Shown here one piece after another: positions 1 to 31,033 of a stretch of 36,720 nt of DNA. Under the pieces are notes generated by a model. The model had not been told where the DNA came from and ran no database searches. It saw nothing but the letters and a program-made list of their open reading frames with translations. Source of the DNA: a virus; IMG/VR virus record IMGVR_UViG_3300029258_003252, positions 1 to 36,720 of that record. The stretch is one strand, 5' to 3'. Made by a program: the position numbers and the translations under genes. Position 1 is the stretch's first letter. Each line of letters starts with the position of its first letter.

Positions 1-421
1 CCCACACGTCCATTTGGGAATCCATAGGCATTTCTTCCCATCCTTCGCCCTCGATTTCATCCATGTAAATGGGGAAATAGTTCCTACGGAAATAATTCCG
101 GCCAGCGGGCAATGGGAAAAGTTTGGGAATATCGTTTTCCAACAGAAATTCTCCTCTAGGAACAGCCCTCTCCCCATACATCATCTCAATCAGAATCTTT
201 TCGGCTTCTTCTTTTGATTTGGCGATAACGTAATCGATTTGATTGGTGTACATTTTCAAAGGGTACTGCGGACAGTCTTTGAAGGGCTCAAAAGCCGTAC
301 TTAACCGTTTAGGTAAATACCAAATCCCCTCGCACGGACAGTTATCATTTAAAATCAATAGAGGAAGCACCGCTGCGGCTCCCGCCGCAGCGGTGCCTTT
401 TAGAAAGTCTCGTCTGTTCAT
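1..421 (-). CDS. Tat-signal protein, paralog 1 (runs off left edge)
   Basis: The frame is open from an ATG at 421 to the window edge, giving 140 codons with no stop. The N-terminus MNRRDFLKG followed by a run of Ala/Gly and VLPL is a classic twin-arginine (Tat) signal: RR-x-F-L, hydrophobic core, short c-region. The exported part shares no motif I recognise; it is mixed acidic/aromatic. The next gene has an almost identical leader, so the two arose by duplication or leader swapping. Expected location is the periplasm or cell envelope. The function is unknown. Confidence 0.75.
   Translation of the reverse strand, partial: MNRRDFLKGTAAAGAAAVLPLLILNDNCPCEGIWYLPKRLSTAFEPFKDCPQYPLKMYTNQIDYVIAKSKEEAEKILIEMMYGERAVPRGEFLLENDIPKLFPLPAGRNYFRRNYFPIYMDEIEGEGWEEMPMDSQMDVW
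367..396. repeat. Perfect hairpin inside Tat leader, copy A
   Basis: 13-bp arms GCACCGCTGCGGC / GCCGCAGCGGTGC flank a 4-nt loop. They encode the Ala-rich core of the Tat signal, roughly 25 nt after the start codon. The same element occurs in three other Tat genes. Confidence 0.9.
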
Positions 422-422
422 T

Positions 423-1085
423 CTAATGTTTCTTTCGCATAATGTACAACGTTTCTTCGGCCCATGCATGGCAAGCACGATGGCACCAACTTGGAGGATG
501 TATTTCCATAATTATGGCATCTGTCGCAAATACCTCTCGGTATTGAAATGATCCTTTGTAATGCGGGTCATAGAAAGTGTTCTCCGGTGTTGTCATTGAG
601 AACGATCCAGGCAAGATTTTTACACGATGAAACCAATTCGTATTGCAACAAGGCCCAGTCTCCTCTTTGTAGCCATAACTCACCCAAGTGTTATAGAAAA
701 TCAGGTCATGTTCTTCTCGATTGTACCACCAATCGAGCAAGCAATTTGCTGTTGCGGCCCTCTTCATTCCCTGATGTTCGGGCAGCTTCCATTCTATATT
801 CATGATCTTATTGGAACTAGGGAAAGGGCCTCCATAGCCACAAGCGATCCAACCATATCCAAGAACATAAAATCCACTATAAAATCCTTTAGGATCATGT
901 GGGTAAAGCCACTCGGGCGGCCTTGGAATATAAATTTTGGGCCTATATCCTGGCGGATTGTCATGCCACGGCCCCGGCTTCTTCTCTGGGATGGCCTTTT
1001 GAGGTTCCTCGGGCAAAATCGATAGAGGAAGCACCGCTGCGGCTCCCGCCGCAGCGGTGCCTTTTAGAAAGTCTCTTCTATTCAT
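423..1085 (-). CDS. Tat-signal protein, paralog 2
   Basis: 220 aa. It starts MNRRDFLKG plus an Ala/Gly core and LPLSI, so it is a Tat export substrate. The mature part is rich in Trp, Tyr, Pro and His, with several Cys (CC at about 148 and two later), and reads like a small extracytoplasmic domain, but I recognise no family. The stretch RAATANCLL is matched by RAATVNCLL in the 2027-2275 protein, so the two are paralogs beyond the leader. The gene sits 1 nt upstream of paralog 1 in the same direction. Confidence 0.8.
   Translation of the reverse strand: MNRRDFLKGTAAAGAAAVLPLSILPEEPQKAIPEKKPGPWHDNPPGYRPKIYIPRPPEWLYPHDPKGFYSGFYVLGYGWIACGYGGPFPSSNKIMNIEWKLPEHQGMKRAATANCLLDWWYNREEHDLIFYNTWVSYGYKEETGPCCNTNWFHRVKILPGSFSMTTPENTFYDPHYKGSFQYREVFATDAIIMEIHPPSWCHRACHAWAEETLYIMRKKH
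1031..1060. repeat. Perfect hairpin inside Tat leader, copy B
   Basis: Identical 13-bp arms and 4-nt loop to the element at 367-396, in the same place relative to the start codon. Confidence 0.9.
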
Positions 1086-1093
1086 ACTTCACC

Positions 1094-1237
1094 TCATCCA
1101 GCGAACTTCTTTTCAAAATCGAGCCCGGCTGCTTCTGCTAGGTCCTCAACTTCGACACGATGACCTTGTGTAACAAGCATACCGTCTTTGTATAGTCCTT
1201 CCCAGCAATCGTCGTTTACCAGTACGAATTTACTCAT
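1094..1237 (-). CDS. Small hypothetical protein (47 aa)
   Basis: The ATG at 1237 is preceded by a strong GGGGGAGAAAG ribosome-binding site and overlaps the end of the upstream Tat gene by 8 nt. The product begins MSKFVLVNDDCWEGLY and is acidic and soluble. A longer reading upstream of this ATG lies inside the neighbouring gene and has no ribosome-binding site. No family recognised; translation is probably coupled to the Tat gene. Confidence 0.7.
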   Translation of the reverse strand: MSKFVLVNDDCWEGLYKDGMLVTQGHRVEVEDLAEAAGLDFEKKFAG

Positions 1238-2015
1238 TCTTTCTCCCCCATTCATAGAATAAAACCATTTGAGGGCGGATAGGATTGCAAAAGGGACCAA
1301 AGGAACCACCACCTTCAACCGACACCAACCCAAAGCAATAGAAGTAAAACGGCAGGCCATCCCTCCCGTATTTTATATCGTAGTCTATTTTTCCCTGGAT
1401 GTCTTCTACGAGAAAATCAACAAGTTCCGCACAGTCCTCGCCTTCTTGGCTGAGACTGTGGAAGTGCGTCAGCAGTTCATGTATGCCACGTCCCCATTCC
1501 TGACATTGAACGAATTTTGCAAGTGGGCTTTTAAGCCATAGTTTATTAAAGTTATGTTTTTCATATGGGACATACAGAAGGCTGGGGGTTTTTGCATGTA
1601 AACCAGATCGAATGTTGGGATATTCTAGCTTCGGGACTATTCTTCGAATCAGAGGAATGCTGACTCTTTTAAACTGACCCATGTGGATTGTTGCTGCAAC
1701 GTCGTTATAGGGCGACCCCTCGTTCCAAAGACGTTGGTTCTCCAAAGCAAGAACAACCGTTGGCTTCTGGTGTTCGGGTAGCCCTTTAAGAAGCCCGGTC
1801 CCATCCCAATTTTTCATTAAATACGCCGCCCACTCTTTGTCTGAGGCTTGGGGATCGGGGCGAACGTCTATCTGTTTTTTGACTCCCTCAAGGTTCTTCT
1901 TAGTCAGCCCTGGGGCTGTTTTTTCTGTAGCTTCTTTTCCAGGTGAACTTGAAGCCAAAAGCGGTAAACCCAAACCCAAAGCCCCAGCTTGTCCGATAAA
2001 CTCACGACGTTTCAT
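1230..2015 (-). CDS. Tat-signal protein, paralog 3
   Basis: 261 aa from the ATG at 2015, chosen because AAGGAG lies 7 nt upstream and because it places MKRREFIGQAG, a Tat motif, at the terminus. The leader is LGLGLPLLASSSPG. It lacks the GC-rich hairpin seen in four sister genes. The mature protein has a charged linker followed by a mixed domain with two Cys. I recognise no enzyme motif. Its 3' end overlaps the next small gene. Confidence 0.8.
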   Translation of the reverse strand: MKRREFIGQAGALGLGLPLLASSSPGKEATEKTAPGLTKKNLEGVKKQIDVRPDPQASDKEWAAYLMKNWDGTGLLKGLPEHQKPTVVLALENQRLWNEGSPYNDVAATIHMGQFKRVSIPLIRRIVPKLEYPNIRSGLHAKTPSLLYVPYEKHNFNKLWLKSPLAKFVQCQEWGRGIHELLTHFHSLSQEGEDCAELVDFLVEDIQGKIDYDIKYGRDGLPFYFYCFGLVSVEGGGSFGPFCNPIRPQMVLFYEWGRKNE

Positions 2016-2026
2016 GTTAATTCTCC

Positions 2027-2275
2027 TTATTGCCATGTATTTTTCGGTCCAGCATTCTCGACCAAACAGTGATGGCCGTAACGCTTTACATGATACTGCA
2101 TACGGAAGCGGTTCAAGGTAGTGAAAAAGTCGAAGGCCTCACCTTTATTCACCAAGAGCAAACAATTTACTGTTGCGGCCCTCAAAGCAATCCAACCTTT
2201 TTCAAAAATCGATAGAGGAAGCACCGCTGCGGCTCCCGCCGCAGCGGTGCCTTTGAGAAAATCTCTTCTATTCAT
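2027..2275 (-). CDS. Short Tat-signal protein, paralog 4
   Basis: 82 aa from the ATG at 2275 (MNRRDFLKG, Ala/Gly core, LPLSI). After the leader comes WIALRAATVNCLL, which matches part of paralog 2, so this looks like a shortened copy. The frame is also open upstream to 2431 and there encodes a CxxC-containing segment (YYCMECGKKF). If translation began there the Tat signal would be internal, so I prefer 2275, although its ribosome-binding site is only moderate. Confidence 0.6.
   Translation of the reverse strand: MNRRDFLKGTAAAGAAAVLPLSIFEKGWIALRAATVNCLLLVNKGEAFDFFTTLNRFRMQYHVKRYGHHCLVENAGPKNTWQ
2221..2250. repeat. Perfect hairpin inside Tat leader, copy C
   Basis: The same 13-bp arms and 4-nt loop as copies A and B. 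Confidence 0.9.
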
Positions 2276-2387
2276 CTGGAAGGGTCCTTGTTTCTTCAGT
2301 TTTCTTTTTGGTAACCGATTTCTTTGGATTGTGATTTTTGACGGTTGATTCAAATCCATTTTCCGAATCTCGTCCGGTGTAAATTTC

Positions 2388-2711
2388 TTACCACATTCCA
2401 TACAATAGTAACCATGCAATAGCCGGACCAAACGGAATTAAAATATGCGTGAATATGAAATGAGGAATACCTGGAAGCGTTTTTGCCAGTTCTACATTCC
2501 CATGCACGTAATCCAATCTCCTCTTTCGTCCTCCGGGGAGAATCCAAGTGATTTCTTCGTATAGTAGCGGAAAATGGAATAGCCAAGGATGTCGCATAAT
2601 AGTTCCACCATTAAGGAAACACTCAAGACCATACCAAAAATACCAGAATAAGATTCCTGCTGCTAGGGCAATCCATAACATGACATGTCCCAACCAAGAA
2701 TCAATTACCAT
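2388..2711 (-). CDS. Small membrane protein
   Basis: 107 aa. There are two hydrophobic segments: LGHVMLWIALAAGILFWYFW near the N-terminus and a C-terminal stretch ending in WLLLYGMW. The middle is charged and loop-like. Its ATG overlaps the stop of the upstream Tat gene (…KYGN stop), so the two are translationally coupled. It is probably an inner-membrane protein; no family recognised. Confidence 0.7.
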   Translation of the reverse strand: MVIDSWLGHVMLWIALAAGILFWYFWYGLECFLNGGTIMRHPWLFHFPLLYEEITWILPGGRKRRLDYVHGNVELAKTLPGIPHFIFTHILIPFGPAIAWLLLYGMW

Positions 2712-3513
2712 ATTTCAATTCCCAATTAAAGCAAATAGAAGTGCGGACATACCTGAAACAAGTTTTATCTGTGGAAGAGATATAGATCCTTCCCGATGGA
2801 AGGAGATTCAATTCCACCTCGCCCCAAATAAATTTTGAAGAATTTTCAACAACAGCATCTTCCGATTTAAGATAACCCAAAGTCTTTTTGCACTTGAACG
2901 CTTGAGTGGGGCCATAATTTTTTATCCAGGGCAAATCTTGAAAAAACTCTTCTGCATTTTCAATTTTATTGCTAGGAGTGCTTGCAAAAGGAAAGAACTT
3001 AATCACACGAAGTTCCTTGGGATTCTCTCCGCAGCGATATTCCCAACCCTCGGCCCAAGGACCGTCTTCTTCGCCGGGACCGTCATAGCAAAATGTTTTG
3101 GCCTGTCGCCAAATCGTTTCCTTTATAAAGGTATCGAAGTCCTTTCCTTCGAAAGGCCCCGGCCTTTTCCTTCTCCACCACTTAGCGGCTTGAATGACGG
3201 CATTGTGCAGATTCTCCGCAACTCCCGTGAATGTGTCCTGAGACTCATCTATCATCACCCATTCTCCCTGTCGTCCCGAGGGCGGTTTAATTGATCCTAT
3301 GGAGCCACTGTGGATTGAATAACCATGCATAACTTGCCAAGCGGCATGACAAACTGTGTTATCATACCTCACTCGCAAAGTGTGCTTTTCCTCGTCGGTA
3401 AGATCCTCCGAAGTTTTAAGTCCGGTAATTGATTCAGACTTCTTTTCAGAAACCAAAGGTATTCCCGCCAACGGCAAGAGAGCCGAAGCCCCCAAAAATT
3501 CACGACGATCCAT
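2701..3513 (-). CDS. Tat-signal protein, paralog 5
   Basis: 270 aa. It starts MDRREFLGASALLPLAGIPLV, a Tat leader of different sequence from the hairpin-bearing ones. The mature part is Trp-rich and acidic with scattered Cys, and I recognise no catalytic motif. It lies downstream of the dehydrogenase gene with a 13-nt gap and is coupled to the membrane protein behind it. It may form an envelope-directed module with the other Tat proteins. Confidence 0.75.
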   Translation of the reverse strand: MDRREFLGASALLPLAGIPLVSEKKSESITGLKTSEDLTDEEKHTLRVRYDNTVCHAAWQVMHGYSIHSGSIGSIKPPSGRQGEWVMIDESQDTFTGVAENLHNAVIQAAKWWRRKRPGPFEGKDFDTFIKETIWRQAKTFCYDGPGEEDGPWAEGWEYRCGENPKELRVIKFFPFASTPSNKIENAEEFFQDLPWIKNYGPTQAFKCKKTLGYLKSEDAVVENSSKFIWGEVELNLLPSGRIYISSTDKTCFRYVRTSICFNWELKYGN

Positions 3514-3526
3514 TTTAGGCTCCTAT

Positions 3527-4657
3527 TCAAGAAAGACTTCCTGGTTCCAACTTCCAGGAGATATCCTCGCCCACATGACTATTGATACAATACAACAACC
3601 TTTGGCAGGCATCAATATCAATATCGGCGTAGGTGGGAACAACTTGATCGTCCAGTTTCCCTTGGGCCATAAGATGGGCAACGGCGGCAGTTGGGAAAGA
3701 CGTGGCCATTTGCATGGCGGTCCATTTTTCATTGGCCTTGATGGTGGTAACGACTTGAGCCGACAATCCGTCTGAAGTAGTGTACCGGATAACCATGTGG
3801 ATGAGATCTTGTTTTGTGGGTGGACAAGCCGATTCAAGCATTTTCTTTAATTGGGAAGCCGATTCGTAGCTAAGACCGGAAAGGCCACAATCGTCCATGA
3901 GAAATCGCATATAGTCATTATGGCCGGTATAACGAATCGTCTTGTATTGGCAGTGTTCCACACCTTGGGCTTTCATCGAATCTAATGTTGATCCAATACC
4001 TCCCTTGGTATGAAAAGCCTCATGCTCCATTCCAAGTTGTTCTAGGCCGGTGAGAGCATCCACTTCAATAATCTCGCCTTCACGAAGAACCCGACATTTC
4101 CCCGCATATTCGTTGATGAGCCCATAGGGACTGAAAACCAAATTATAATTGAGGCGGTTGCCCTTCATTTGCGGAAGACCACCGCAAAAGAGATAGATCG
4201 CTGTGAGGCCGGGATTTTTTCTAGCGATTTTCTCAGCAAGCATGTTGAGATAGCCAGGAGCGAGGCCGAGATCGGTAAAGACCGGAAGCGTTGCTTTTTC
4301 TAAAGCGTACCTTTGAATTTCTTGGGAAACTTGGGGGTTGCCGCCCAGATCACAATATCGCATTTCATGATCGATGCAAACTTTCGCAATAATTTCATTT
4401 GCTCGAAAAGGAGCGGCGGAAATGACAATATCGAAATCCTTGATAGCCCGACCATGACAGGCTTCCGTTTGTACAATAGAGGGAAAATTCGCTAAACTGG
4501 TTCGATGGGGTTTTAATTGCAATTCTCCCCATCTCGCCTTGTAAGCCTCTAAAGCTGCGGCATCGGGTTCAAAAACAATAACTTCGTTATCTAGTTTTTG
4601 CATTGCATAGGCGATAGCCTGCCCCATCCAGCCACATCCTACAACCACCGCTTTCAT
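3527..4657 (-). CDS. Saccharopine dehydrogenase-like NAD(P)-dependent oxidoreductase
   Basis: 376 aa. The N-terminus MKAVVVGCGWMGQAIAYAM is a Rossmann fold with GxGxxG at residues 7-12. The segments DFDIVISAAP and RYCDLGG are typical of the saccharopine dehydrogenase / lysine 6-dehydrogenase family, and LGLAPGYLNMLAEKIA marks the substrate-domain boundary. Family members oxidise or form C-N bonds at lysine-like substrates; the substrate here cannot be read from sequence. The length is normal for the single-domain type. A sigma70-like promoter and a strong AGGAGGAAT ribosome-binding site lie directly upstream. It is probably an auxiliary metabolic gene. Confidence 0.85.
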   Translation of the reverse strand: MKAVVVGCGWMGQAIAYAMQKLDNEVIVFEPDAAALEAYKARWGELQLKPHRTSLANFPSIVQTEACHGRAIKDFDIVISAAPFRANEIIAKVCIDHEMRYCDLGGNPQVSQEIQRYALEKATLPVFTDLGLAPGYLNMLAEKIARKNPGLTAIYLFCGGLPQMKGNRLNYNLVFSPYGLINEYAGKCRVLREGEIIEVDALTGLEQLGMEHEAFHTKGGIGSTLDSMKAQGVEHCQYKTIRYTGHNDYMRFLMDDCGLSGLSYESASQLKKMLESACPPTKQDLIHMVIRYTTSDGLSAQVVTTIKANEKWTAMQMATSFPTAAVAHLMAQGKLDDQVVPTYADIDIDACQRLLYCINSHVGEDISWKLEPGSLS

Positions 4658-4688
4658 GTTTACCTATTCCTCCTAAATAATATTGGCA

Positions 4689-4717
4689 TTTGTAGAGAAA
4701 AAAGCGAATTTTGTCAA
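4689..4717 (-). promoter_or_regulatory. Sigma70-type promoter for the dehydrogenase gene
   Basis: On the minus strand a perfect -35 TTGACA is followed after exactly 17 nt by a near-consensus -10 TACAAA, about 30 nt before the dehydrogenase start codon. This is the clearest host-type promoter in the window. Confidence 0.7.
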
Positions 4718-4837
4718 CACTAACCTTCGAAGAGTGGGTCGAATATCAAAATTACCTGGACGAAAGCAACAGGTTACTAGGCAAAATTTCGATTATTGAA
4801 CCTCCCGAACAACCTGAATCCTCTAGATTAACCCCCA

Positions 4838-5122
4838 CTAGTCTACAATATTGAGGCCACTTGGCGGAATCACAATTCCGCTCCCGAATTGAGCATTATA
4901 AGCATTCTTGATCTCATCATCCGGGTCGTCTTTGTAAATGACGTGTTCTTTCGGAATCTCGATCTTCTCCCCTTTAGAAAAGGGATTGAGGGGACCCATC
5001 CCAATTCCCTCTCGGGTGGGCAGGATTCTAACTGGGTGTTTAAGGACATATCTCTCGTTTTCAAATGACATTTCCGCCAACACATCTTCACCGGTAACTA
5101 GCTTGAGAAATTTGATATTCAT
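4838..5122 (-). CDS. Small Sm/LSM-like phage protein
   Basis: 94 aa starting MNIKFLKLVTGEDVLAEM, then LKHPVRILP and a C-terminal region of short beta-strands. The pattern 'K-L-x-T-G-E-D-V-x-A-E … L-x-x-P' is that of a small conserved protein of T4-like phages, especially cyanophages, for which an Sm/Hfq-like barrel is predicted. I base this on resemblance, not alignment. It could bind RNA, which would fit a genome rich in small RNAs, but that is inference. About 180 bp without a gene separate it from the dehydrogenase start. Confidence 0.6.
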   Translation of the reverse strand: MNIKFLKLVTGEDVLAEMSFENERYVLKHPVRILPTREGIGMGPLNPFSKGEKIEIPKEHVIYKDDPDDEIKNAYNAQFGSGIVIPPSGLNIVD

Positions 5123-5150
5123 GATTCCCTTTCTTTTACTCTATTAGAGC

Positions 5151-5975
5151 ATGAACGAATCGATTTACAATCATTTTAGCAAATGCTACAAAAATTACAA
5201 GACCTATCTAGATCTAGGCGACATGGCTTATTCTAAAGAAGATTGGGAACAGGCCGTTTGGTGGTATCAAATAGCCAATTTTAACTGCCAGAGGACACTA
5301 GATGGCTGGGACAAGCTAGCAATGGCTCTACACCACACTGGGAATAATAGAGCCGCAGCAGAGGCCGTCAGGGCCGCTCTAGCGTATGATATGCCCTCTA
5401 GCCGGTACAAACGTCTAAAGAAGAATCTGACCGTATTTGACCCCAAATACGTCAATTCCGATCCAGAATATTACGATGAGTTTTGGGCGAGCAAACCCAA
5501 TATGAAGAGTTTGGAGAAAATCCGAATCGAAAAAATGGCCGAAATGATCTCCGAAGACAAAACAGTCCTAGATATTGGCTCGGGACCCGGATGGATCAAG
5601 GATTATCTTGATGAGGATGTCAAATATCTAGGTGTGGATTTCTCCCGAGTGGCCCGCAAGATGGTAGAGGAGCGTGGCGGGCTTTCGGCTGCCAGCATAG
5701 ATGACGTAAAAGAAAATAACTGGGACGTAGTCATTCTGGCCGAGATTTTGGAACATATCGAAGATGATGTTGGCTATCTAAAAGATGCTGCTGTCAAAGT
5801 CCGGGAAAACGGCTGTCTCCTAGTTAGTGTCCCTCGCCACAAGATCATGGACGACCCAGCCCATGTTCGAGACTATACTGCCGAGGAATTTGACGAAAAA
5901 TTAGAAATGGTAGGTGAAATCGTTGAAAGTTTCTCCTTAGAGAGATGGGAAATCCGAAAAGTCAAGGTGAGCTAG
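5151..5975 (+). CDS. TPR-like plus class I SAM methyltransferase
   Basis: 274 aa. Residues about 20-90 look like two TPR helical hairpins (AYSKEDWEQAVWWYQIA, RAAAEAVRAAL). From about 135 there is a Rossmann methyltransferase: VLDIGSGPGW (139-148, the SAM loop), YLGVDFS (acidic end of strand 2), and VVILAEILEHIED, the motif IV region of Methyltransf_11/23 types. The substrate is unknown. It is one of few rightward genes, divergent from the Sm-like gene. Confidence 0.8.
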   Translation: MNESIYNHFSKCYKNYKTYLDLGDMAYSKEDWEQAVWWYQIANFNCQRTLDGWDKLAMALHHTGNNRAAAEAVRAALAYDMPSSRYKRLKKNLTVFDPKYVNSDPEYYDEFWASKPNMKSLEKIRIEKMAEMISEDKTVLDIGSGPGWIKDYLDEDVKYLGVDFSRVARKMVEERGGLSAASIDDVKENNWDVVILAEILEHIEDDVGYLKDAAVKVRENGCLLVSVPRHKIMDDPAHVRDYTAEEFDEKLEMVGEIVESFSLERWEIRKVKVS

Positions 5976-6091
5976 AAAGGCAGACTAAAAAGCCAGCAAT
6001 AAAAGGCCCAAAGCAAAAACCCAACCACAATCACGACAAAAAATGGCAACGCTTCCTTCAGTATTTTCACGTTACTAATATAGATATTAAC

Positions 6092-6424
6092 ATGAAAAAT
6101 TTCAAACAATTTTTAGTCGAAATAGACGAAATTCTATTCGAACAGGTCTACGATCCAGGGAAAGAACAGTCTCAAGCGAGCATGTGGGCCCAGCAGGACA
6201 AAGATTGGAAGAAACTGAAAGATCTAATCGCTCAGTTAAATGAAGATGATCCTGCGGCCAGTTGGGATGTAAGGATCAGTCGAGACGTAGAGGAATACGA
6301 ACATCCAAGAGATTCTGACCAATTTGAATTAGTAAATGCCGGGGAAGTTGTTACAACTGGAAGTCTGGATGAATTGATGCGAAGGGTGTATCAAATCGGC
6401 AAAGAACAGGGAAGTTTTTGGTAA
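6092..6424 (+). CDS. Small protein with capsid-targeting-like N-terminus
   Basis: 110 aa from the ATG at 6092. The frame extends further upstream but overlaps the methyltransferase gene. This start gives MKNFKQFLVEIDE, resembling the capsid-targeting peptide of T4 internal proteins (MKTYQEFIAEA) and four other proteins in this window. The rest is acidic and helical with no known domain. If the resemblance holds, the protein is packaged in the head and its N-terminus is cut by a prohead protease. Confidence 0.6.
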   Translation: MKNFKQFLVEIDEILFEQVYDPGKEQSQASMWAQQDKDWKKLKDLIAQLNEDDPAASWDVRISRDVEEYEHPRDSDQFELVNAGEVVTTGSLDELMRRVYQIGKEQGSFW

Positions 6425-6649
6425 TCAATCCCAACCCATATCTGGATCGTACCTTCTGCTTTCTTTTTCTCCACAATTTCTACATTCTCGCTCTTGAACG
6501 AAGTCGTGGCCTTCCTTATCTTGCCACATATCCCATTCATGCGAACATCCATTCCTAGCCACCATTACTAGAACATAACAAACCAAACCAATGATTACCA
6601 GTCCTATTGCATAACCAAATGATTCAATCTGAGCTAAAATCAAGTTCAT
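6425..6649 (-). CDS. Single-pass membrane protein with zinc-ribbon tail
   Basis: 74 aa. One transmembrane helix (about residues 10-32, IGLVIIGLVCYVLVMVA) is followed by a small domain with C-S-H and C-x2-C (ECRNCGEKE), a probable metal-binding knuckle. The start overlaps the end of the upstream membrane gene by 26 nt. No family recognised. Confidence 0.65.
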   Translation of the reverse strand: MNLILAQIESFGYAIGLVIIGLVCYVLVMVARNGCSHEWDMWQDKEGHDFVQERECRNCGEKESRRYDPDMGWD

Positions 6650-6962
6650 AATTTGTCTCCATCCAACTATCTCGGGAAAACAGTCTTTGTACAGATACTC
6701 CGTTTTCAGTGCCGTAAATCAAATACAAAGTCCCATCAACTTCAAAAATATAACCCGCCTTATTCTCGATAGATGGAAACTCCAATATAATCTCAACATT
6801 TTGTGCCGAGGGAATCCAATAAGAGGCGGCGGGTTCGCAGCTAACTCTTAGATTGACCATAACCAAAACCAAGAAAAGAGTGATGGTTGAAAAGATGGCT
6901 GAAAACGTCCACATAATCGGTATCCAATTTTTCACTTTTTCTCCTAACGGGATTTTATCCAT
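6624..6962 (-). CDS. Single-pass membrane protein
   Basis: 112 aa. A cytoplasmic start with LGEKVKNWIP is followed by a transmembrane helix at about 17-40 (WTFSAIFSTITLFLVLVMV) and a soluble, beta-rich C-terminal domain of about 70 residues. It looks like an N-in/C-out anchored protein. It overlaps the HNH gene upstream by 8 nt. Unknown function. Confidence 0.65.
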   Translation of the reverse strand: MDKIPLGEKVKNWIPIMWTFSAIFSTITLFLVLVMVNLRVSCEPAASYWIPSAQNVEIILEFPSIENKAGYIFEVDGTLYLIYGTENGVSVQRLFSRDSWMETNYELDFSSD

Positions 6963-7426
6963 ATTCTAATATCATTTTAAACTGTTCTTGCGATTTACTT
7001 CTCTTCTGCTGATTGCAATCTTTACAAGACAAAACCAAGTTCGCCTTTTTGCTTGATCCACCCCTGGATTTAGGGATCACATGATCGATTGTGCTGTCAC
7101 AGAAACGAAGCTTCTTTTTACAATAGTAACATCTTGGGTCTTGCCGCCAGAGGTTAAATCTGTGTTTAGAAATTTGTTTTTTCCCAGGAACACAGTCCAC
7201 ACATTTGTCGGGATCGAAATGTTCTTTTTTGCAATTAGAACAAATTAAGATTATACCCTCTTGGTCGGACCCGAACAAATCTCGCATTCTGTAAATCCAG
7301 TTTTGTGTGACAACAAAGGCAAAACTGTTGTTGAACAATCCTCATAATTCGCTTCAACATTCGTTGGCCCGGATTGTCTGGAATCGCGAACCAAGTTTGG
7401 TTGAGCCATGGTTTACTCGCCATCAT
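6955..7426 (-). pseudogene. HNH endonuclease, broken by a single-base frameshift
   Basis: Two overlapping frames make one gene. The first (from 7426, MMASKPWLNQTWFAIP) carries FCLCCHTKL, one half of a zinc ribbon. The second carries ICSNCKKEH, the other half, then CYYCKKKLRFCDSTIDHVIP and NLVLSCKDCNQ, a complete HNH motif. The switch falls at the GGG run at 7270-7272, and removing one G restores a continuous protein. The start overlaps the stop of the upstream gene. It is either a decayed nicking/homing enzyme or a sequencing indel. Confidence 0.7.
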
Positions 7427-7787
7427 TTGCCTCTTGGTTTTCGATGCAACTCTGGCAAAGGGTAGAAAAGCGGTGGGAGGGACTTTCCCATTCCTTACCT
7501 TCTGCCCCACATATCTGACACGTCCTGGTTGATTCCTCTTCGGCGGCCTCAATCCGTTCCTTGGCTTCATCATTGGCATTATCGTGCAAAACACGCAGTT
7601 TGCCAAACTTTTGCTTGATTTGCATAATGTGAAGTTTGAGGTAGTGATCCCAAGCAATTTTTTCTAGGTCCTCGACAAGTTTTACAATGATTTGATCCCA
7701 TCCCTCGGGCCAGTCGTAAAACATCATTTTAGACGGCATTAGCCATCTATGGTTCTTAATTAGCTGCTTGAAGGCTTTTCTCTCCAT
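7413..7787 (-). CDS. Hypothetical protein with CxxC zinc site
   Basis: 124 aa. The helical N-terminal part (KAFKQLIKNHRWLMPSKMMF … WDQIIVKLVEDL) is followed by a probable zinc ribbon, CQICGAEG plus LCQSCIENQ. This architecture is common in phage hypothetical proteins; no named family. It is divergently arranged from the rightward gene at 7846 with about 58 bp between. Confidence 0.7.
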   Translation of the reverse strand: MERKAFKQLIKNHRWLMPSKMMFYDWPEGWDQIIVKLVEDLEKIAWDHYLKLHIMQIKQKFGKLRVLHDNANDEAKERIEAAEEESTRTCQICGAEGKEWESPSHRFSTLCQSCIENQEANDGE

Positions 7788-7845
7788 GACCTACTTATAT
7801 CAAAAAGCATTGGATAAATCAAGGTAGAAAGGGCTAAATATCCAT

Positions 7846-9303
7846 ATGAGCGACTTCAGGAATTGGTTAATATTCGATGAGGCGAGCGTAGGCTATGCAA
7901 TTGCGGGCTTGGGCAGAGAACTATGCATTCTCCTAGAAGCCAGGAGAAAAAAGGGAAAGAGAGATCCTCAACGACAACTATTCGCTCCTGAAACAGAGGC
8001 AGAAGAAGCAGAAAGAATCAAAAAACACCAAATACCCCCAGAAGAAAGAGAAAAACCGGAAATTTGGGAACCGCCGATGCCCGAAGAAGAGGAATCATGC
8101 CCTATTACGCCGCTAAGTGGTTATGCTAAACACATCGGGGCTATTCAGGCTTTCGCAATGGCCAATCCTGAGAACTTTGCACAGGTCATGATGTTCTCGC
8201 CATTGTCGGCAAATGTTCCTTTCCCAAAACACTGGGATAACTTCTATATGTTGATGACAATTTTGAAACATCAATTCCCAGACAAAGTGACGCCTCAAGA
8301 GATCGATCAAGTGGCAAAAGCATTTGGAGATTACCAATATGCCATGCCACACACGATCTCAGGATGGAAAGTAGATACAATTGCGGACATCTGGAACAAT
8401 AGGCATAAGCTATATACCAGATTGCCTAAAGTCGCTCGAAAAGGCGACGACGCAGACCTGATAAGAGAACTAGTAAAAATCAAGGGTATCCAGCCTGTAA
8501 AAGCCGGATTTATGGCTCAATTGCTTTTTGGCAGAGCCGGGTGTATCGACACGCACAACGTCGATATCTATCGGCACGTTTTCCCAGAACTGAAAAAACT
8601 TATGCCGAAAGGCAGTGGCGAAGATCCCTGGAACGTGGTTAAAACCAAATTGGCAAAAGGGGCTCCCCCAGAAAAAATCCAACGATACATCAAACTCCTA
8701 AAAGAACTTGAAAAAAGAGGCATAGGAACACAACAGCTTTGGGATGTTTGGGTTGACTTCGTTGAAAGCTTCTATGAATACATGAATCAATACGGAATCG
8801 GGCCTTATGCTAAGTTGGGACAAGCAATAGATCCCGAAGACCCTCACTACAAAGAATTGGTTGGCAAAGAAGTTTTGAAGCAACCACCCGCAGGACGAGA
8901 GGGAGGCAAACCAGCCCTTATTCCGGTGATCGGCAAAGGAGGAATGGGAGCAAGTGCTACCCATTTGCAATTAGATCCTGATGAAATGTATCGTCAACTT
9001 TATCGAATGTATCGAATGGGCATACCCGCGAGCCAAGCCGCTGCATCCATTCCTTTCAAGCGACTCGGAGGAAAAGAAGGAGAACCTTTGGAAAAGGCCA
9101 TAGGAATGGGTAGAGAACCTAGCTTACTTCACTACTTTGGAAAAAGCGGTGAAGAATTAGACCCCGACTTCGTAAGATGGATTATAAAAGGACAACTGGC
9201 GAAGGGGGGAAGAGATAGAGAAAAAGAAGAGCGATTGAAAAAGGCGGCCAGAAGAAAGGCTGAATTAGAACGCTATCGCGGAGGATTATTTGGTGAGTGG
9301 TAA
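7846..9303 (+). CDS. Large protein with capsid-targeting-like start and HhH-like core
   Basis: 485 aa. It begins MSDFRNWLIFDE, a capsid-targeting-like N-terminus. A charged linker of about 100 residues follows. The core has VKIKGIQPVKAGFMAQLLFG followed by GCIDTHNVDIY. The first resembles the helix-hairpin-helix of endonuclease III-type glycosylases and the second is a conserved 'G-C-I-D-T-H-N' seen in T4-like cyanophage proteins of unknown role. A basic C-terminal tail has many Lys/Arg. It may be a virion-packaged DNA-acting protein; activity not proven. Confidence 0.6.
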   Translation: MSDFRNWLIFDEASVGYAIAGLGRELCILLEARRKKGKRDPQRQLFAPETEAEEAERIKKHQIPPEEREKPEIWEPPMPEEEESCPITPLSGYAKHIGAIQAFAMANPENFAQVMMFSPLSANVPFPKHWDNFYMLMTILKHQFPDKVTPQEIDQVAKAFGDYQYAMPHTISGWKVDTIADIWNNRHKLYTRLPKVARKGDDADLIRELVKIKGIQPVKAGFMAQLLFGRAGCIDTHNVDIYRHVFPELKKLMPKGSGEDPWNVVKTKLAKGAPPEKIQRYIKLLKELEKRGIGTQQLWDVWVDFVESFYEYMNQYGIGPYAKLGQAIDPEDPHYKELVGKEVLKQPPAGREGGKPALIPVIGKGGMGASATHLQLDPDEMYRQLYRMYRMGIPASQAAASIPFKRLGGKEGEPLEKAIGMGREPSLLHYFGKSGEELDPDFVRWIIKGQLAKGGRDREKEERLKKAARRKAELERYRGGLFGEW

Positions 9304-10571
9304 TGGGTTTTAAACAATGGTTAGAACAATCAGAACGGAATCCCTTCGATGATTTCTTTGAAAGAATCAAGCGACACGTTCTGCAAAATATGCGAGTTAA
9401 GCCGGGTCGTGCTGGATTCTCATTTCCCCAGTCCTATGAGACTTTCATGTCTTTTGCTGAACCGGAAACAATCTCGATGCAAATGCCTACTCGACCAATG
9501 GCTCTGGCAGCGAATAAATATCCCGAACCAATTTTGGAGGCGAAGACCAGAACTTACGCTGTAAAAAAAGGAATTGGAGCGGAGAGGGCATTAAAAGGCT
9601 CTCTTGCATCTTTGGGCTATACACAGCCACCATGGGTGAACTGGCCAACTATTCAAGCTGTTGTATCTGAAAAATTCGGGAAAATCGCCAGTCCATTAGG
9701 TTTACTTTTCGAAATAGAAACCTTCCTCTACTTCATCGAAACAATGGGACTCAAAGATAGAGAAGAGGAAGAGGCGGTGCCTTCTGTGGATTACTTCAAA
9801 AGCCTTAGGGAAAAACATCAAGTGCAAATAAAGCAAGCTCTCGCAAACCCAGATCATCAGAGAATTGCGTTCTTTGCCACAAGAACTCATGCACAAGATT
9901 TGGCTAACGATATGTACAAAAGATCGAAAGCTGTGCTGAAATGTTCGCCAGATGCAGTATCGTTCAGTGGTGGCCTTACAAGCCGTTCCGATCCAGCGGA
10001 TATTTCCCTGATTTGCAGTAAAGTCATGCAACAGCTTGGATGGAGTGTCAAATACACTAGCAGAGCGGAAATCAAAATGGCCGATGTCTCCGATAAGAAA
10101 GCCTATGCTTTGTTGCGTGGTCGATCTCCAAAGCGTTTTACACAAGAAATGGCCCAAGCAAAAGAACAATGGAATGAACTAGATGATTTTACAGCGTGGA
10201 GAGATCCGTTACTTGACTATTTAGAAGAAGCAGCCAACGAATACTTCGATTCGCCACATGCTCCGAAACGTTTTGCCAAGTTACTTAACACAATCATCAG
10301 CCGAGGATACAAAACACTTCCTGCAATTAGAAAATACACCAGCGGAATGAGGGGCGGAGCAGGATGGTCACCAGCGATTAGAAAAGACTTCAATATCAGA
10401 CAACAGAAGTTGGTTGGGAAAGATACCGCCACTGTGGACGTTCGAAGAACAGACGCTCAACTAATCATCCACTACCGTGGCGATTCCCGATTTGGAACAA
10501 AAATCATTTTCCATCCCTGGACAAATGACGATATCAAAATTGATGTGAGCAATCTTACTTCAGAACAGTAA
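9303..10571 (+). CDS. Large virion-type protein, possible nuclease fold
   Basis: 422 aa from the ATG at 9303, which overlaps the stop of the previous gene and gives MGFKQWLEQSERNPFDDFF, again capsid-targeting-like. A Met two codons upstream is possible but spoils the motif. Around residue 220 the pattern SDPADISLIC … WSVKYTSRAEIK could be the D-x(n)-[SD]-x-K core of a PD-(D/E)xK nuclease, but I cannot confirm it. It is co-transcribed with the 7846 gene. Probably a head-packaged protein. Confidence 0.55.
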   Translation: MGFKQWLEQSERNPFDDFFERIKRHVLQNMRVKPGRAGFSFPQSYETFMSFAEPETISMQMPTRPMALAANKYPEPILEAKTRTYAVKKGIGAERALKGSLASLGYTQPPWVNWPTIQAVVSEKFGKIASPLGLLFEIETFLYFIETMGLKDREEEEAVPSVDYFKSLREKHQVQIKQALANPDHQRIAFFATRTHAQDLANDMYKRSKAVLKCSPDAVSFSGGLTSRSDPADISLICSKVMQQLGWSVKYTSRAEIKMADVSDKKAYALLRGRSPKRFTQEMAQAKEQWNELDDFTAWRDPLLDYLEEAANEYFDSPHAPKRFAKLLNTIISRGYKTLPAIRKYTSGMRGGAGWSPAIRKDFNIRQQKLVGKDTATVDVRRTDAQLIIHYRGDSRFGTKIIFHPWTNDDIKIDVSNLTSEQ

Positions 10572-10764
10572 TATCCTTGACACACCAACTATATGGCACT
10601 TCATCCAAAATCTCGTCGTCGGTTAATCCCTCTATTTGATCTGGAATCGCTTGCTTGAGCCATTCAATATAAATCTCTTCCGCTATGTCTCCCAGGTCGA
10701 GTTCAACAACCGCTTCAACACAACCGGTCGCCACGTCATGATCTGTGATAACTAAAACCTTCAT
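10555..10764 (-). CDS. Small acidic hypothetical protein
   Basis: 69 aa, strongly acidic, starting MKVLVITDHDVATGCVEA. It overlaps the convergent gene end by 17 nt and its start overlaps the stop of the next upstream small gene. No family recognised. Confidence 0.6.
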   Translation of the reverse strand: MKVLVITDHDVATGCVEAVVELDLGDIAEEIYIEWLKQAIPDQIEGLTDDEILDEVPYSWCVKDITVLK

Positions 10765-10925
10765 TTTGCCTCCGCAACAAATTGTCTTTGATCGTGCATT
10801 ATACGAGGAAGCTCCAAAATCGCCTTATCCGGTATATTGGGGAAAAAGGCCTTTTTGATTTTAGATATCCACTCCGCTGGAACTTCCTCGTCTTTAATGC
10901 CCACCGAAAGATGCCAAAATTTCAT
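10761..10925 (-). CDS. Small hypothetical protein next to IS end
   Basis: 54 aa from MKFWHLSVGIKDEEV, with AGGG 6 nt upstream. The open frame continues upstream (…LDHQGN) right to the IS605-type right end at 10979, so the element may have cut off the original N-terminus. No family recognised. Confidence 0.5.
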   Translation of the reverse strand: MKFWHLSVGIKDEEVPAEWISKIKKAFFPNIPDKAILELPRIMHDQRQFVAEAK

Positions 10926-10986
10926 GTTTCCCTGATGGTCCAGACTAAAAACAATGTTTAGTACCTTAAGTATTGCCGGTGACGTA

Positions 10987-11006
10987 CCACGGGGCAAGCC
11001 CCGTGG
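10987..11006 (-). ncRNA. Right-end hairpin / putative omega-RNA 3' end
   Basis: CCACGGGG and CCCCGTGG flank a 4-nt loop just outside the tnpB stop. In TnpB systems the guide (omega) RNA comes from the tnpB 3' end plus this right end, and the bases beyond 10979 would serve as guide. Only the hairpin is directly visible. Confidence 0.55.
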
Positions 11007-11011
11007 CTTCC

Positions 11012-12238
11012 CTAGTTCACTGACTCCAACTTGCTTGCCTTAATCCCATCAATGTTAGTCAACAGATTAAGTAAAGTAGAGGTTGAAATCTCCCTAGCCT
11101 TAAAATCCCTGTCGTCCACAGGTATTTGTTTCATTGCTTCTTGCTCAATGCAAAGTGCAGATTTAATGTCTCTATCGTTAACATATCCGCATTTGCATGA
11201 GTAAGTGCGTTCACTCAAAGTTAACTTTTGTTTACTTCCACAACTTGGACATAGTTGAGTTGAAGGAAAGAAGCGATCTACCATGATTGGTGTATGAGAT
11301 TTGTGCTTCAAATCTCCGATGATTCCACCAATACCAGTGTATTGCACCTTCTTTCCATGATTACCACTATGCCAAGCATGTATACTCTCGTCTTGGAAAC
11401 AAACATACTTAAAACAACGAATAATTGCGTTGACTATCTTATGGCGTATGTCGCTTCTTTTGTTTGTCAAACGCTCATACTCTTTTTGTCTTTTTCTTCT
11501 ATCTTGCTCTTTCTTTTTGCTTCTCGGTCTTCCTTTACGCATAATCCTACGATCAAGACGTTTGATACGCTTGCTCGTAGGAACTTGAAACTCAACCTTT
11601 GTTCCATCGCTGAATATCAATTGTGTTTCACATCCAAAATCAATGCCAATGCTTGTATTAGGGATTTCTACTTCTTGCTTGTCTTGGTAAGTTGTGACAT
11701 TGATATAAAAGTCTTGACCTTTACGCACAAGTGTAGCACAAGCAATGTCAGAGTTCTCAGGTATTTGCTCAATACCATTAACCTTCAACCATTTTTTTAG
11801 ACCTTGTACTCTTACTCTGTTCCCTTTGAGGAAAAATGTTTTATTGTATTGAACAAGTGGTATAGAATTTACTTCACTCTTAAATTTAAGTCGTCCTACT
11901 TTATATCCTTTTTCTTTTCTTGATTTCAACGAACGTAATGATCCCCAAAGCCTCGTTCTGATGCTTTGCTTCATTTGACCTTTGAGGACATTTAACTTTC
12001 TTGTCTCAAATTCATCACCTACTTTGACAGGAACTTCACGAACAGTAGTATCAATTTCATCTACAGCATCAAGAGCAAGGCAGTGATTGTAGAACCACTT
12101 GGCTTCTTTGAACATATTGGACAAATGATTGATTGCAAACTTGGAAAGGTGCGAGCGATCAATCTTCAACTCAAACACTTTGCAAGTTTGATTTTCTCTT
12201 TTTTGTCTTGTGAGTTTTCTGCTAGTAAATCTGTCCAC
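11012..12238 (-). CDS. tnpB: TnpB RNA-guided endonuclease
   Basis: 408 aa, the normal TnpB length. Domain order is an N-terminal wedge/REC region, RuvC-I with SIGIDFG (Asp200), RuvC-II with FQDESIHAW (Glu284), a zinc finger CPSCG … CKCG (330-350), and RuvC-III NDRD (354-357). All catalytic acids are present, so it should be an active RNA-guided DNA nuclease that cuts empty donor sites and maintains the element. Its AT-rich, A-heavy codon use differs somewhat from the neighbours, fitting a mobile origin. Confidence 0.95.
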   Translation of the reverse strand: MDRFTSRKLTRQKRENQTCKVFELKIDRSHLSKFAINHLSNMFKEAKWFYNHCLALDAVDEIDTTVREVPVKVGDEFETRKLNVLKGQMKQSIRTRLWGSLRSLKSRKEKGYKVGRLKFKSEVNSIPLVQYNKTFFLKGNRVRVQGLKKWLKVNGIEQIPENSDIACATLVRKGQDFYINVTTYQDKQEVEIPNTSIGIDFGCETQLIFSDGTKVEFQVPTSKRIKRLDRRIMRKGRPRSKKKEQDRRKRQKEYERLTNKRSDIRHKIVNAIIRCFKYVCFQDESIHAWHSGNHGKKVQYTGIGGIIGDLKHKSHTPIMVDRFFPSTQLCPSCGSKQKLTLSERTYSCKCGYVNDRDIKSALCIEQEAMKQIPVDDRDFKAREISTSTLLNLLTNIDGIKASKLESVN

Positions 12239-12327
12239 GTAATTATATAGTTAATACACTAACAATTTTCGTGAACAAAATGAAAAAAATTTTCTCCACT
12301 ATGGCGGCTTACATCCACGACCCAAGG

Positions 12328-12397
12328 GCTGGCACTTTCGTTCGTCTCGCTTCGCTCAACTCACTCTCAGTGCCAGCATTTTTGCGTTGCAAAAATG
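12328..12397. repeat. IS605-type left-end hairpins
   Basis: GCTGGCACT (12328-12336) pairs with AGTGCCAGC (12369-12377) around a core of GCTTCGCTC-like repeats. It abuts a second hairpin, CATTTTTGC / GCAAAAATG (12377-12385 / 12389-12397). Similar left-end cores occur at 30061-30167 and 31034-31091. Confidence 0.65.
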
Positions 12398-12501
12398 TCA
12401 TGGTTTTACGCCACCGATTATAACGATCAAAGTAGACGATCCCGCTCTGATTCTTGATTGGGCAGAATTTTTGAGTTTGGTGAAGCCAGTGCTTCACTAT
12501 T

Positions 12502-12704
12502 TTAATATTTCTTGCGTGGACGGCCTCTTTTTAAACGCACGTCCAATCCACATTCTCTCGCAATCCCCTTGGCACATCAAGTTTATCTGCGATTTCACAA
12601 CCATTACGATTTGTCAAAATCAGTTGAGCGAGAATTTTAACCGTGTCCGCTCGCCGTGCTGTGGGCTTTCTTGTAATTTCGTACTGGGCCGCTATATGGT
12701 CCAC
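12502..12704 (-). pseudogene. Helix-turn-helix-like small protein, frameshifted
   Basis: The GTG at 12704 has AAGGAG 4 nt upstream. Frame 1 gives DHIAAQYEITRKPTARRAD … NGCEIADKLDVP and then runs into a stop at 12531. A neighbouring frame continues KGIARECGLDVRLKRGRP and ends at 12502. Adding one A to the AA at 12569-12570 joins them into one protein of about 68 aa with an HTH-like middle and a basic 'RGRPRKK' tail resembling an AT-hook. It could be a DNA-binding regulator. Either a real lesion or an assembly indel. Confidence 0.5.
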
Positions 12705-12737
12705 ATGACTCCTTGAGGATCTTCTTGGCGGCGGATG

Positions 12738-13367
12738 TCAAACGGGTTTTCGTCCATCTTTCCATCTTACAAAATTGTGTTGGTTTGCTTCTTCTATAAT
12801 GCTTTCGGGACAACGACTAATACCAATCGATTCAACCATTGTCCGATTGATACCAGCCAATTTAATATTATTGCACGGATTCCGACTGATACCAACCAAC
12901 CCCCAACATACTTTGGCATCCATACAAGCGTCCCAAACAAAAATGAAATCCTCTCGATTCAACCAACCATACGAAATACAGGATTGAGTCTGTCCTTTGG
13001 GTAATTCAACCCCCTCAAAAATCTCATCCAAATTAACGATGTCCGACTTGTCATCATTAAACCGAATTATTGGAAACTTTTTCCCCTTCCACTTGATTTT
13101 TCCGTCTACTTTGATGGAATTTTCTTGCCAACCGGGTATGGAACCATACTTTGGCATAAAATGCCTGTGCTTCTTGCAATCAGGGCAAATATAACTGGGT
13201 AGAATGGACCGCCCCATGCCGGGAAGAGTCATTCTTTCATAGACCCCAGCGTTACCCGAACCGCAAGAACAATACTCGATCTTTGGCTCTTTTTTGGAAA
13301 CCATTGCAGGAAGCACCGCTGCCGCTGGAACAGCGGCAGCGGTGCCTATAAATTCTCGTCTGTTCAT
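12738..13367 (-). CDS. Tat-signal protein, paralog 6
   Basis: 209 aa. MNRREFIGTAAAVPAAAVLPAM is a Tat leader. The mature part opens with a Cys-rich region (YCSCGSG … ICPDCKKHRH), a likely zinc or Fe-S site, followed by WNxRED-like and Trp/Cys-rich stretches. The start has GGAG and overlaps the stop of the small gene upstream, so the two are coupled. It lies 9 kb from the main Tat cluster but keeps the leader hairpin. Confidence 0.8.
   Translation of the reverse strand: MNRREFIGTAAAVPAAAVLPAMVSKKEPKIEYCSCGSGNAGVYERMTLPGMGRSILPSYICPDCKKHRHFMPKYGSIPGWQENSIKVDGKIKWKGKKFPIIRFNDDKSDIVNLDEIFEGVELPKGQTQSCISYGWLNREDFIFVWDACMDAKVCWGLVGISRNPCNNIKLAGINRTMVESIGISRCPESIIEEANQHNFVRWKDGRKPV
13313..13345. 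repeat. Perfect hairpin inside Tat leader, copy D (compensated)
   Basis: 15-bp arms (13313-13327 and 13331-13345) with a 3-nt loop. Relative to copies A-C the arm sequence changes (GCTGCGGC to GCTGCCGCTG) and the other arm changes with it, so pairing is kept although the encoded residues differ. Confidence 0.9.
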
Positions 13368-18765: not shown

Positions 18766-18798
18766 AGCCCCTTTTGCCGCTTTGCGGCAAAAGGGGCT
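18766..18798 (-). terminator. Intrinsic terminator after the SRP RNA
   Basis: AGCCCCTTTTGCCGC and GCGGCAAAAGGGGCT flank a 3-nt loop, followed on the minus strand by TTTTT. It sits directly after the SRP RNA. Confidence 0.85.
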
Positions 18799-18893: not shown

Positions 18894-19328
18894 TTAGTTG
18901 TTTTCTTCAAACCGATAATAGGCAGGAGGAAATCCTTTCCTAGTTATTTTAGTGTTTTCTCCCAGATAAGGAGCAAGACTTTTTTCCATATCCGCCTCTG
19001 TTTTTCCATATGTGAAGAGAAAATCAATTTGCTTGGTTTTGTTGAGAATCCCGTGTCCGCTTCTAAGTTCTTTGATTGCATTGTCGTCCAAGACCAAACA
19101 AAAAGCCACTTGTTCTTTATCTATCTCCAAGGTATTCATTGCAGAGCGAAAATTCTCATCGTCTATGACGATGAGAATTTTCCTGGGATCATCAAGTTGT
19201 ACTTCGGAACATTGAAAAACAATGGGTCGGCCTTTTTGAAGCTCATGGAGATTCATTTCGCTGAAACCAATCCCAACAAGCTTTTTAAGGCCACAATCTG
19301 AGTTGATTGTTCCTGAAAACTTAATCAT
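18894..19328 (-). CDS. Hypothetical protein upstream of SRP RNA
   Basis: 144 aa, MIKFSGTINSDCGLKKLV…, an alternating alpha/beta protein with ILIVIDDENF and VAFCLVLDDNA strands. No family recognised. It shares a transcript with the SRP RNA, whose 5' end starts at its stop codon. Confidence 0.6.
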   Translation of the reverse strand: MIKFSGTINSDCGLKKLVGIGFSEMNLHELQKGRPIVFQCSEVQLDDPRKILIVIDDENFRSAMNTLEIDKEQVAFCLVLDDNAIKELRSGHGILNKTKQIDFLFTYGKTEADMEKSLAPYLGENTKITRKGFPPAYYRFEENN

Positions 19329-30060: not shown

Positions 30061-30480
30061 CGGCGTGAAAACCCCTACCAATTCTGAAAGAGAATTGGTT
30101 GGTCATTAGCGAAGCGACCGTAGGGAGCGAGCATGACCAGCCCTTTAGGGTAGGGGATGAAACGCCGTGAGCTAGAAATATACTCAAAAATGAGTAGAAC
30201 TTAACTATAATATATTTCCTGAATTTGTGAAGTAAGAGAGTGTGCCAATGACTGATGTTGTCCATGCCTAGCCTTTGAAATACAAGTTCTTGTATCTGAA
30301 CTAATTGCCGTGAAAACCAAGCGGAACAACAATTCATCAGAAAGAAATACAATTTTCAATACAAATACCGCAGGAAGTGCGGGAATTTAAGCCTGTGGAC
30401 TTGGTGTAAGACTTTCGATTGAGAAAGCAACTGAGGGTGAAGCAGGAAGCCCCGACCCTTTAGGGTCGTGGGTACTTCAC
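30061..30480 (+). mobile_element. IS605-type remnant with tnpB 3' scar
   Basis: The left end has nested inverted repeats: CGGCGT/ACGCCG, CCCCTACC/GGTAGGGG, ACCAATTCT/AGAATTGGT, TGGTCAT/ATGACCA, around an AGCGAAGCG core. The right end is the hairpin CGACCCT-TT-AGGGTCG followed by GTGGGTACTTCAC at 30480. The last 110 bases read like a degraded TnpB C-terminus (NTAGSAGI, ACGLGVR, EAGSPDPLG) plus omega-RNA scaffold. No transposase frame survives. Confidence 0.6.
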
Positions 30481-30490
30481 GAGTCAATAT

Positions 30491-30625
30491 ATGTCACAAT
30501 TAGAAACTTTTCTACGTAAAAATAAACAATACAACTTAAAAATTGCTGTGGTTGGCGATACTATGATTGATGAGTATTATTCGGTACGAGCAGATCGAGT
30601 AAGTCCTGAATTTCCGATCCCCGTA
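30491..30625 (+). pseudogene. Truncated HldE/RfaE-type sugar kinase (N-terminal fragment)
   Basis: Starts MSQLETFLRKN, then KIAVVGDTMIDEYYSVRADR and VSPEFPIPV, the unmistakable N-terminus of PfkB-family heptose kinases (HldE). After about 45 codons the similarity stops dead and the frame runs antisense through another gene fragment. It starts 10 nt after the IS remnant's right end. The rest of the kinase is absent. Confidence 0.75.
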
Positions 30626-30994: not shown

Positions 30995-31033
30995 AAATTT
31001 TGGCGGCAGGAAACCTCTACATTTCACAGAAAT

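Follow-up and report, generated by a model that had tools for sequence, protein, structure and literature searches.

Palindromic Tat leaders with paired arm changes in huge-phage contigs, tentatively attributed to DNA template switching and recombination

Paired changes in the two arms of a hairpin are normally read as proof of a selected RNA structure. Template switching in DNA has been described as creating and maintaining hairpins (Monttinen and Loytynoja, PMC8794818) and, in coding DNA, as homogenising arms and inverting spacers with nonsynonymous effect (Abraham and Hazkani-Covo, PMC8604942). The mosaicism of phage genomes, in turn, is reported to arise by relaxed recombination of the lambda Red or Rad52-like kind at short shared sequences (PMC2327257, PMC3945230). 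Here, we analyze IMG/VR record IMGVR_UViG_3300029258_003252 (36,720 bases; the whole stretch is hereafter the window, named G000 in comparisons), in which four genes carry a perfect hairpin within the coding region of a twin-arginine translocation (Tat) leader. We tentatively favor a palindromic leader that is spread by recombination and in which complementarity of the arms is maintained largely through DNA template switching. Since its covariation is coding and amino-acid-changing, and its lineage is rich in palindromes, the leader provides a clean setting in nature for telling template switching from RNA selection. It would also show how exported proteins could be reshuffled behind a common leader in huge phages.

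Results

The four hairpins lie on the minus strand and cover codons 9-19, or 8-18, of Tat leaders. As the first-pass annotation had recorded, those at 367-396 (hairpin 1, leader codons 9-19), 1031-1060 (hairpin 2, +26..+55 of gene 1085-423) and 2221-2250 (hairpin 3) are identical, with 13 Watson-Crick pairs, no mismatch and a 4-nt loop that reads GGGA on the coding strand; because they are related by descent or recombination, they do not count as three independent observations. The copy at 13313-13345 (hairpin 4) is indeed altered in both arms, its inner pairs differing from those of the other three, and it keeps a 15-bp perfect stem around a 3-nt loop (UUC on the coding strand). Counted from the A of the ATG, stems begin at +26 in the first type (S1) and at +23 in hairpin 4 (S5 type), in agreement with the roughly 25 nt first reported. 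No Rfam family matches at the hairpins. An antisense terminator was considered and rejected, given that the plus-strand T-run past the stem (CTTTTAGA) is, by eye, not conserved in the other variants.

The leader peptides of the hairpin genes read MNRRDFLKGTAAAGAAAVLP (three copies) and MNRREFIGTAAAVPAAAVLP (the fourth), and all four match the Pfam family TAT_signal (PF10518; E 1.1e-8, 2.2e-9, 6.2e-9 and 5.3e-4), the fourth at 20.2 bits, below the curated cut-off of 22.7 that the other three exceed. With a twin-arginine motif followed by a Gly/Ala-rich h-region, they have the makeup of Tat-type signal peptides, and export of the proteins is predicted. All four genes are on the minus strand: a 5' part of 140 aa truncated by the contig end (2-421), and genes of 220 aa (423-1085), 82 aa (2027-2275, with hairpin 3) and 209 aa (12738-13367).

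An exact-pattern scan found the hairpin in three other IMG/VR contigs, named G001 (17.2 kb), G002 (84.5 kb) and G003 (50.8 kb), of which G001 is 99.99% identical to part of G003 over 17,235 nt; leaders are named by contig and position of the A of the ATG. Starts matching M[NDKE..]RR[DE]F in these four records amount to 24 leaders, or 22 distinct ones once G001 leaders identical to G003 leaders are merged, and a perfect stem of at least 11 bp is present in 15 of the 24 (14 of the 22). The stemless leaders sit in the same arrays, some of them adjoining stem-bearing genes. Two minus-strand genes of the window, at 1230-2015 (MKRREFIGQAGALGLG) and 2701-3513 (MDRREFLGASALLPLAG), serve as internal counter-examples: the longest stem is 4 bp in each, and their leaders fold no better than shuffles (z-scores -0.01 and -0.73). 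For four stem leaders the fold z-scores are -4.7 to -5.8. The sample is a single lineage of metagenomic contigs in which misassembly is possible. The 81-nt leader has no match in phage or plasmid collections, and a leader search with the AAAGAA pattern in viral_contigs returned five stretches, all on the same three contigs. Five more distant relatives have no leaders, a 390-kb relative has one exact leader, without a stem, and the 595-kb uncultured phage LR756511.1 has no exact leader match and four with one mismatch. The gene at 421 has a body homologous to that of G003_309 (69% aa identity over 154 columns), and a homologue search with the body of 12738-13367 returned one relative, on G002; this partial homologue, G002_9595, has its own stem of 14 bp.

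The stem-bearing leaders fall into a small set of variants. Nine copies have the S1 stem sequence; S2-S6 differ from it in stem pairs or loop, with stems of 13-15 bp (14 bp in S4), and G002_33771, with an unrelated 11-bp stem, is a seventh type. Stem starts are constant across variants (+23 to +27) and loops vary (GGGA, UUC, GAG or 10 nt). When S1-S6 are aligned and pair columns are numbered from the outer stem end, five pairs (columns 3, 4, 5, 12 and 15) are changed on both sides, so the compensatory change seen in the first pass is real and extends past the pair of stems compared there. Column 1 is G.U in some variants and A-U in others, with pairing kept, and column 2 is broken in S4. Over the 13 inner columns, 77 of 78 cells are paired, a figure equalled by only 4 of the 720 ways of permuting the 3' arms. 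On the sense strand, five of the six variants have G.U or A-U as their outermost pair, and G.U is confined to that position, the core having none. Three of the five double changes are double transversions (C-G/A-T, G-C/C-G, T-A/G-C), which have no G.U intermediate and therefore fit copying in one step, and the paired change in S3 alters both encoded residues (Thr to Ile and Val to Met). Perfect Watson-Crick arms with paired changes lacking wobble intermediates, by which template-switch hairpins are recognized, are what these leaders have. Two further comparisons were made by eye: the palindrome at G002 40427 differs from that of G000 by two changes in one arm and four in the other, which is suggestive only, and the loops UUC and GAG are one base from each other's reverse complement, a weak sign.

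Among the nine S1 copies, synonymous variation is seen in 0 of 11 stem codons and in 8 of 12 flanking codons (Fisher P 0.0013). The alignment of leaders that the first-pass annotation proposed as a check returns both paired changes and synonymously invariant stem codons. The covariation is real, albeit among few independent variants, and the earlier conclusion that pairing is selected does not follow from it, because template switching, as described in the reports cited above (PMC8794818, PMC8604942), gives the same pattern without RNA selection and because perfect palindromes occur in unrelated genes too. The exact peptide pattern has no match in genome_contigs, so the refuting case named in the first-pass annotation, a homologue with the same peptide and stem-breaking codons, was not found there; the nearest case is G002_31524 (TSAAVGAAAM, longest stem 4 bp), in which the peptide differs.

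To gauge chance, the peptide was fixed, codons were resampled from clade usage and the chance of a stem matching or exceeding the observed length was recorded. It is 0.0024-0.0027 for the three S1 leaders of the window (0.002-0.0027 for all S1), 0.00025 for S2, 0.0018 for S3, 0.00055 for S4 and for S5, the type of hairpin 4, 0.0008 for S6 and 0.016 for the 11-bp stem of G002_33771. The controls were 99 distinct bacterial leaders of comparable Ala-rich peptide (from 100 loci, one without a new distinct region) and 17 unrelated viral leaders, the control peptides having been chosen by a narrower pattern than the clade leaders. None has a stem as long as 11 bp; the longest are 10 bp, in a GC-rich bacterial genome, and 9 bp among the viral leaders. 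Codon resampling and control leaders together bear out the first-pass view that the stem is more than a by-product of the Ala-rich peptide, and chance arising from Ala-rich coding is rejected as the whole explanation.

Long palindromes are not confined to leaders. A 16-bp perfect palindrome with a 3-nt loop lies at 19148-19182 (minus strand), at codon 48 of an unrelated open reading frame (ORF; 18894-19328) without a Tat leader. In the other coding DNA of the contigs, five stems of at least 13 bp were observed where synonymous permutation predicts 0.05, at codons 48/145, 87/131, 352/381, 54/139 and 18/165 of different genes; the last of these stems lies in a doubtful ORF and is possibly terminator-like. 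Among non-leader 12-bp coding windows, which overlap and give small numbers, perfect pairing occurs 15 times against an expectation of about 0, one mismatch 10 times against 1.9 and two mismatches 33 times against 23. Single mismatches are G.U in four cases and A.C in two, without a strong G.U excess. The greater enrichment of perfect over near-perfect pairing, together with the scattered gene positions of the long stems, suggests that some process generates perfect palindromes at the DNA level; such a process is described in the literature as template switching between inverted-repeat arms (PMC8794818, PMC8604942).

Two apparent exchanges of gene bodies, subject to the assembly being right, map with their junctions to the leader. 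DNA upstream of G000_1085 is identical at 114 of 116 positions to that before G002_6657 (window 1099-1237, minus strand, is 97.8% identical to G002 6715-6853). The 220-aa gene behind it is G002_31019-like: its body is identical at 192 of 194 positions to G002_31019 over +71..+270, and window 433-1085 and G002 30367-31019 have 95.3% DNA identity (659 bp). Since upstream and body match two different G002 genes, the body appears to have been exchanged behind the leader. The switch falls between +25 and +60, that is, the hairpin (+26..+55) plus four bases, an interval (1027-1060, minus strand; +26..+59) that coincides with hairpin 2. On G003, the stretch 289-379 is 100% identical to window 2205-2295 (91 nt), and the body of G003_309 instead matches G000_421, so that an upstream region and leader of the G000_2275 type stand before a body of the G000_421 type (99 of 105 in its first part). 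Here the switch lies at +65 to +72; should the change at +65 of G000_421 be private to it, the interval becomes +22 to +71. The bodies behind S1-S3 leaders form six groups that blastp does not connect at E 1e-3, and exact runs shared between leaders are 34-63 nt long. Aligned pieces of G000 and G002 of unrelated function often have 70-78% identity and some at least 90%; this variation among pieces points to general mosaicism.

Several other features of the window and its relatives were recorded. A 510-aa conserved protein (25820-27352, minus strand; weak VWA match) is 58% identical to one in LR756511.1, which places the window in a huge-phage group. The hairpin-leader genes L154 (G001) 3160-4203 and L155 (G002) 4524-5630 have C-terminal matches to the major head protein family phrog_138 (E 5.3e-9 and 3.4e-11, respectively), a Tat leader thus standing on a head-protein-like body; the L155 protein has no sequence match in PDB. 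A bacterial small signal recognition particle (SRP) RNA (RF00169; 18803-18892, minus strand) scores 49.9 bits against a gathering score of 40 over its full length, with the conserved GGUCAGG...AGCAGCC core, and is followed by a 15-bp terminator-like hairpin (18766-18798). It was looked for in 10 related records and found in one; an SRP RNA carried by a phage next to many genes for exported proteins would be remarkable, and an open-literature search, judged by titles and abstract starts, found no paper on one. Intergenic perfect hairpins resembling CCCCTTTTCGCC-loop-GGCGAAAAGGGG recur at window 18766, 25762 and 35873, in L155-L159 (G002) and in L160-L162 (G003), and are probably bidirectional terminators. 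The window also has a TnpB/Cas12f-like gene (11012-12238, minus strand; PF07282, PF01385), with no Y1 transposase detected in five contigs, and a group I intron (RF00028; 35163-35352, minus strand; 57.9 bits) in a tRNA-rich region. The end of the G002 contig, at L159 2999-4523 (contig 82999-84523), is densely self-similar in a tandem-like manner (75-80%).

Discussion

Our tentative account, a palindromic leader maintained largely by template switching, builds on the stems, their paired changes, the excess of coding palindromes and, if the assembly is right, the exchange junctions. The Ala-rich h-region would tolerate palindromy at small cost, because GCN repeats, read as their reverse complement in a shifted register, again encode Ala. 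In the course of replication, the nascent strand would switch template between the arms and copy one onto the other; a change in one arm would thereby be lost, or else be mirrored in the other arm and look compensatory. Recombination would then use the common block of 34-59 nt as homology to exchange the bodies downstream of the leader, spreading the palindrome and keeping its middle uniform. RNA function would be unnecessary: the stable mRNA stem would be a consequence, although it may have secondary effects on expression. Several results weigh against this account. Bacterial control loci also show an excess, if a weaker one, with five perfect coding stems of 12 bp or longer in 609 kb where 0.67 are expected, which makes the excess in the clade one of degree only (five stems judged coding in 116 kb; P 0.013 against the bacterial controls, with five of ten long clade stems excluded by eye as terminator-like and within spurious ORFs and the bacterial five unpruned). 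Leaders carry stems much more often (14 of 22) than the rest of the coding DNA does. Template switching alone leaves the contrast between stem and flanking codons (0/11 versus 8/12) unexplained, so that recombination or selection is needed too, and in no close ancestor-descendant pair was a template-switch event seen. Both junctions could be assembly errors, given the 34-63 nt exact runs between leaders; moreover, any shared sequence, palindromic or not, would host crossovers.

The main rival, which could explain much of the same evidence, is a selected mRNA hairpin of about 13-16 bp, placed shortly after the start region, that controls early elongation, initiation or mRNA stability, with selection on pairing driving the covariation. 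Amino-acid-changing pairs among the covarying ones, the constant start, the low fold z-scores of the four stem leaders, the synonymous invariance of stem codons and the G.U or A-U outermost pair are all in keeping with it. We nevertheless consider it somewhat unlikely, as 9 of 24 leaders on the same contigs (8 of 22 distinct) lack a stem of at least 11 bp, some of them next to stem-bearing genes, so that the hairpin is not present in all functional homologues; this argues against RNA selection, as do the differing loops, a core without sense-strand wobble, similar palindromes at other positions of other genes and the lack of an Rfam match at the hairpins. Its least likely version is the ribosome pause during Tat targeting that the first-pass annotation suggested. 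Tat export is described as strictly post-translational (PMC7317946), and a ribosome would come to the stem, at +26, too early for the signal peptide to have been made, which makes a targeting pause unlikely; the stemless leaders and the non-Tat coding palindromes on the same contigs add to the doubt. Descent from one ancestral leader that was palindromic by coincidence, with the variants due to drift under Ala-rich constraint, would account for the nine copies of one S1 sequence, and, given the peptide, the odds of reaching 13 bp or more are not vanishingly small (P about 0.002). This is already strongly disfavored and very improbable: in S2-S6, paired changes have left the stems perfect or nearly so (P 0.00025-0.0018 each, not independent), few arm permutations match the observed pairing (4/720 for 77/78 cells), and no control leader (0/99 bacterial, 0/17 viral) reaches 11 bp.

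The exchanges themselves allow other readings. The palindrome could be real and the exchanges assembly chimeras formed at a repeated leader, since the records are metagenomic and exact runs between leaders reach 34-63 nt. Such lengths are near common assembly k-mer sizes. We regard chimeras as unlikely, because different exchanges occur on two separate contigs and because in the first one the parental leaders share only 34 nt and upstream synteny is kept. A dedicated recombination site, at which the palindrome in cruciform or hairpin form would be the substrate of a resolvase or hairpin nuclease and would promote useful body exchange, would suit two mapped junctions within the leader, one of them exactly on the hairpin, and the many body families behind one leader. 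However, there are two events only, ordinary homologous recombination predicts the same place when the leader is the sole homology, and no nuclease is tied to the palindrome, making such a site quite improbable. A hairpin of the REP/RAYT (repetitive extragenic palindrome and its associated transposase) or IS200/IS605 type was rejected, the Y1 (HUH) transposase domain PF01797 being found in 0 of 5 contigs, which are incomplete; this also speaks against a dedicated site. At its most ambitious, the palindromic Tat leader would be a recurrent crossover site, maintained for promoting exchange, in a leader-anchored gene-cassette system of huge phages that swaps exported-protein bodies between loci and between phages. 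We give this a low probability.

Among the closest known systems, template-switch hairpins resemble the leader palindrome of our favored account in having perfect stems produced and maintained by arm copying, multi-base compensatory changes and amino-acid changes in coding inverted repeats. Those described in the reports cited are from rRNA, microRNA loci and scattered yeast genes (PMC8794818, PMC8604942), whereas in the phage one palindrome is common to many leaders and would have been spread by recombination. The coding palindromes of Nematomorpha mitochondria are likewise perfect inverted repeats in genes, with arms that encode functional residues, but they are reported to reach 284 bp and to occur in many mitochondrial genes, whereas those of the phage are 30-34 nt long, confined to one leader type and present as co-varying copies (PMC6649704). 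Tat signal peptides (PF10518) have the same RRxF motif and Gly- and Ala-rich h-region; unlike the phage leaders, 99 of 99 similar bacterial ones are without a stem of at least 11 bp. Integron attC sites, which go with an integron integrase, are imperfect hairpins with extrahelical bases, whereas the phage stems are perfect. Phage mosaicism, as described, also exchanges modules at limited homology (PMC2327257, PMC3945230), but the shared block here is coding, sits at the boundary of signal peptide and body, and is palindromic. Open-literature searches on Tat leaders and gene shuffling in phages, on coding palindromes and on template switching, judged largely by titles and abstract starts and with subscription papers outside their scope, found no description of a palindromic signal-peptide leader: the ingredients are each known, and their combination appears new.

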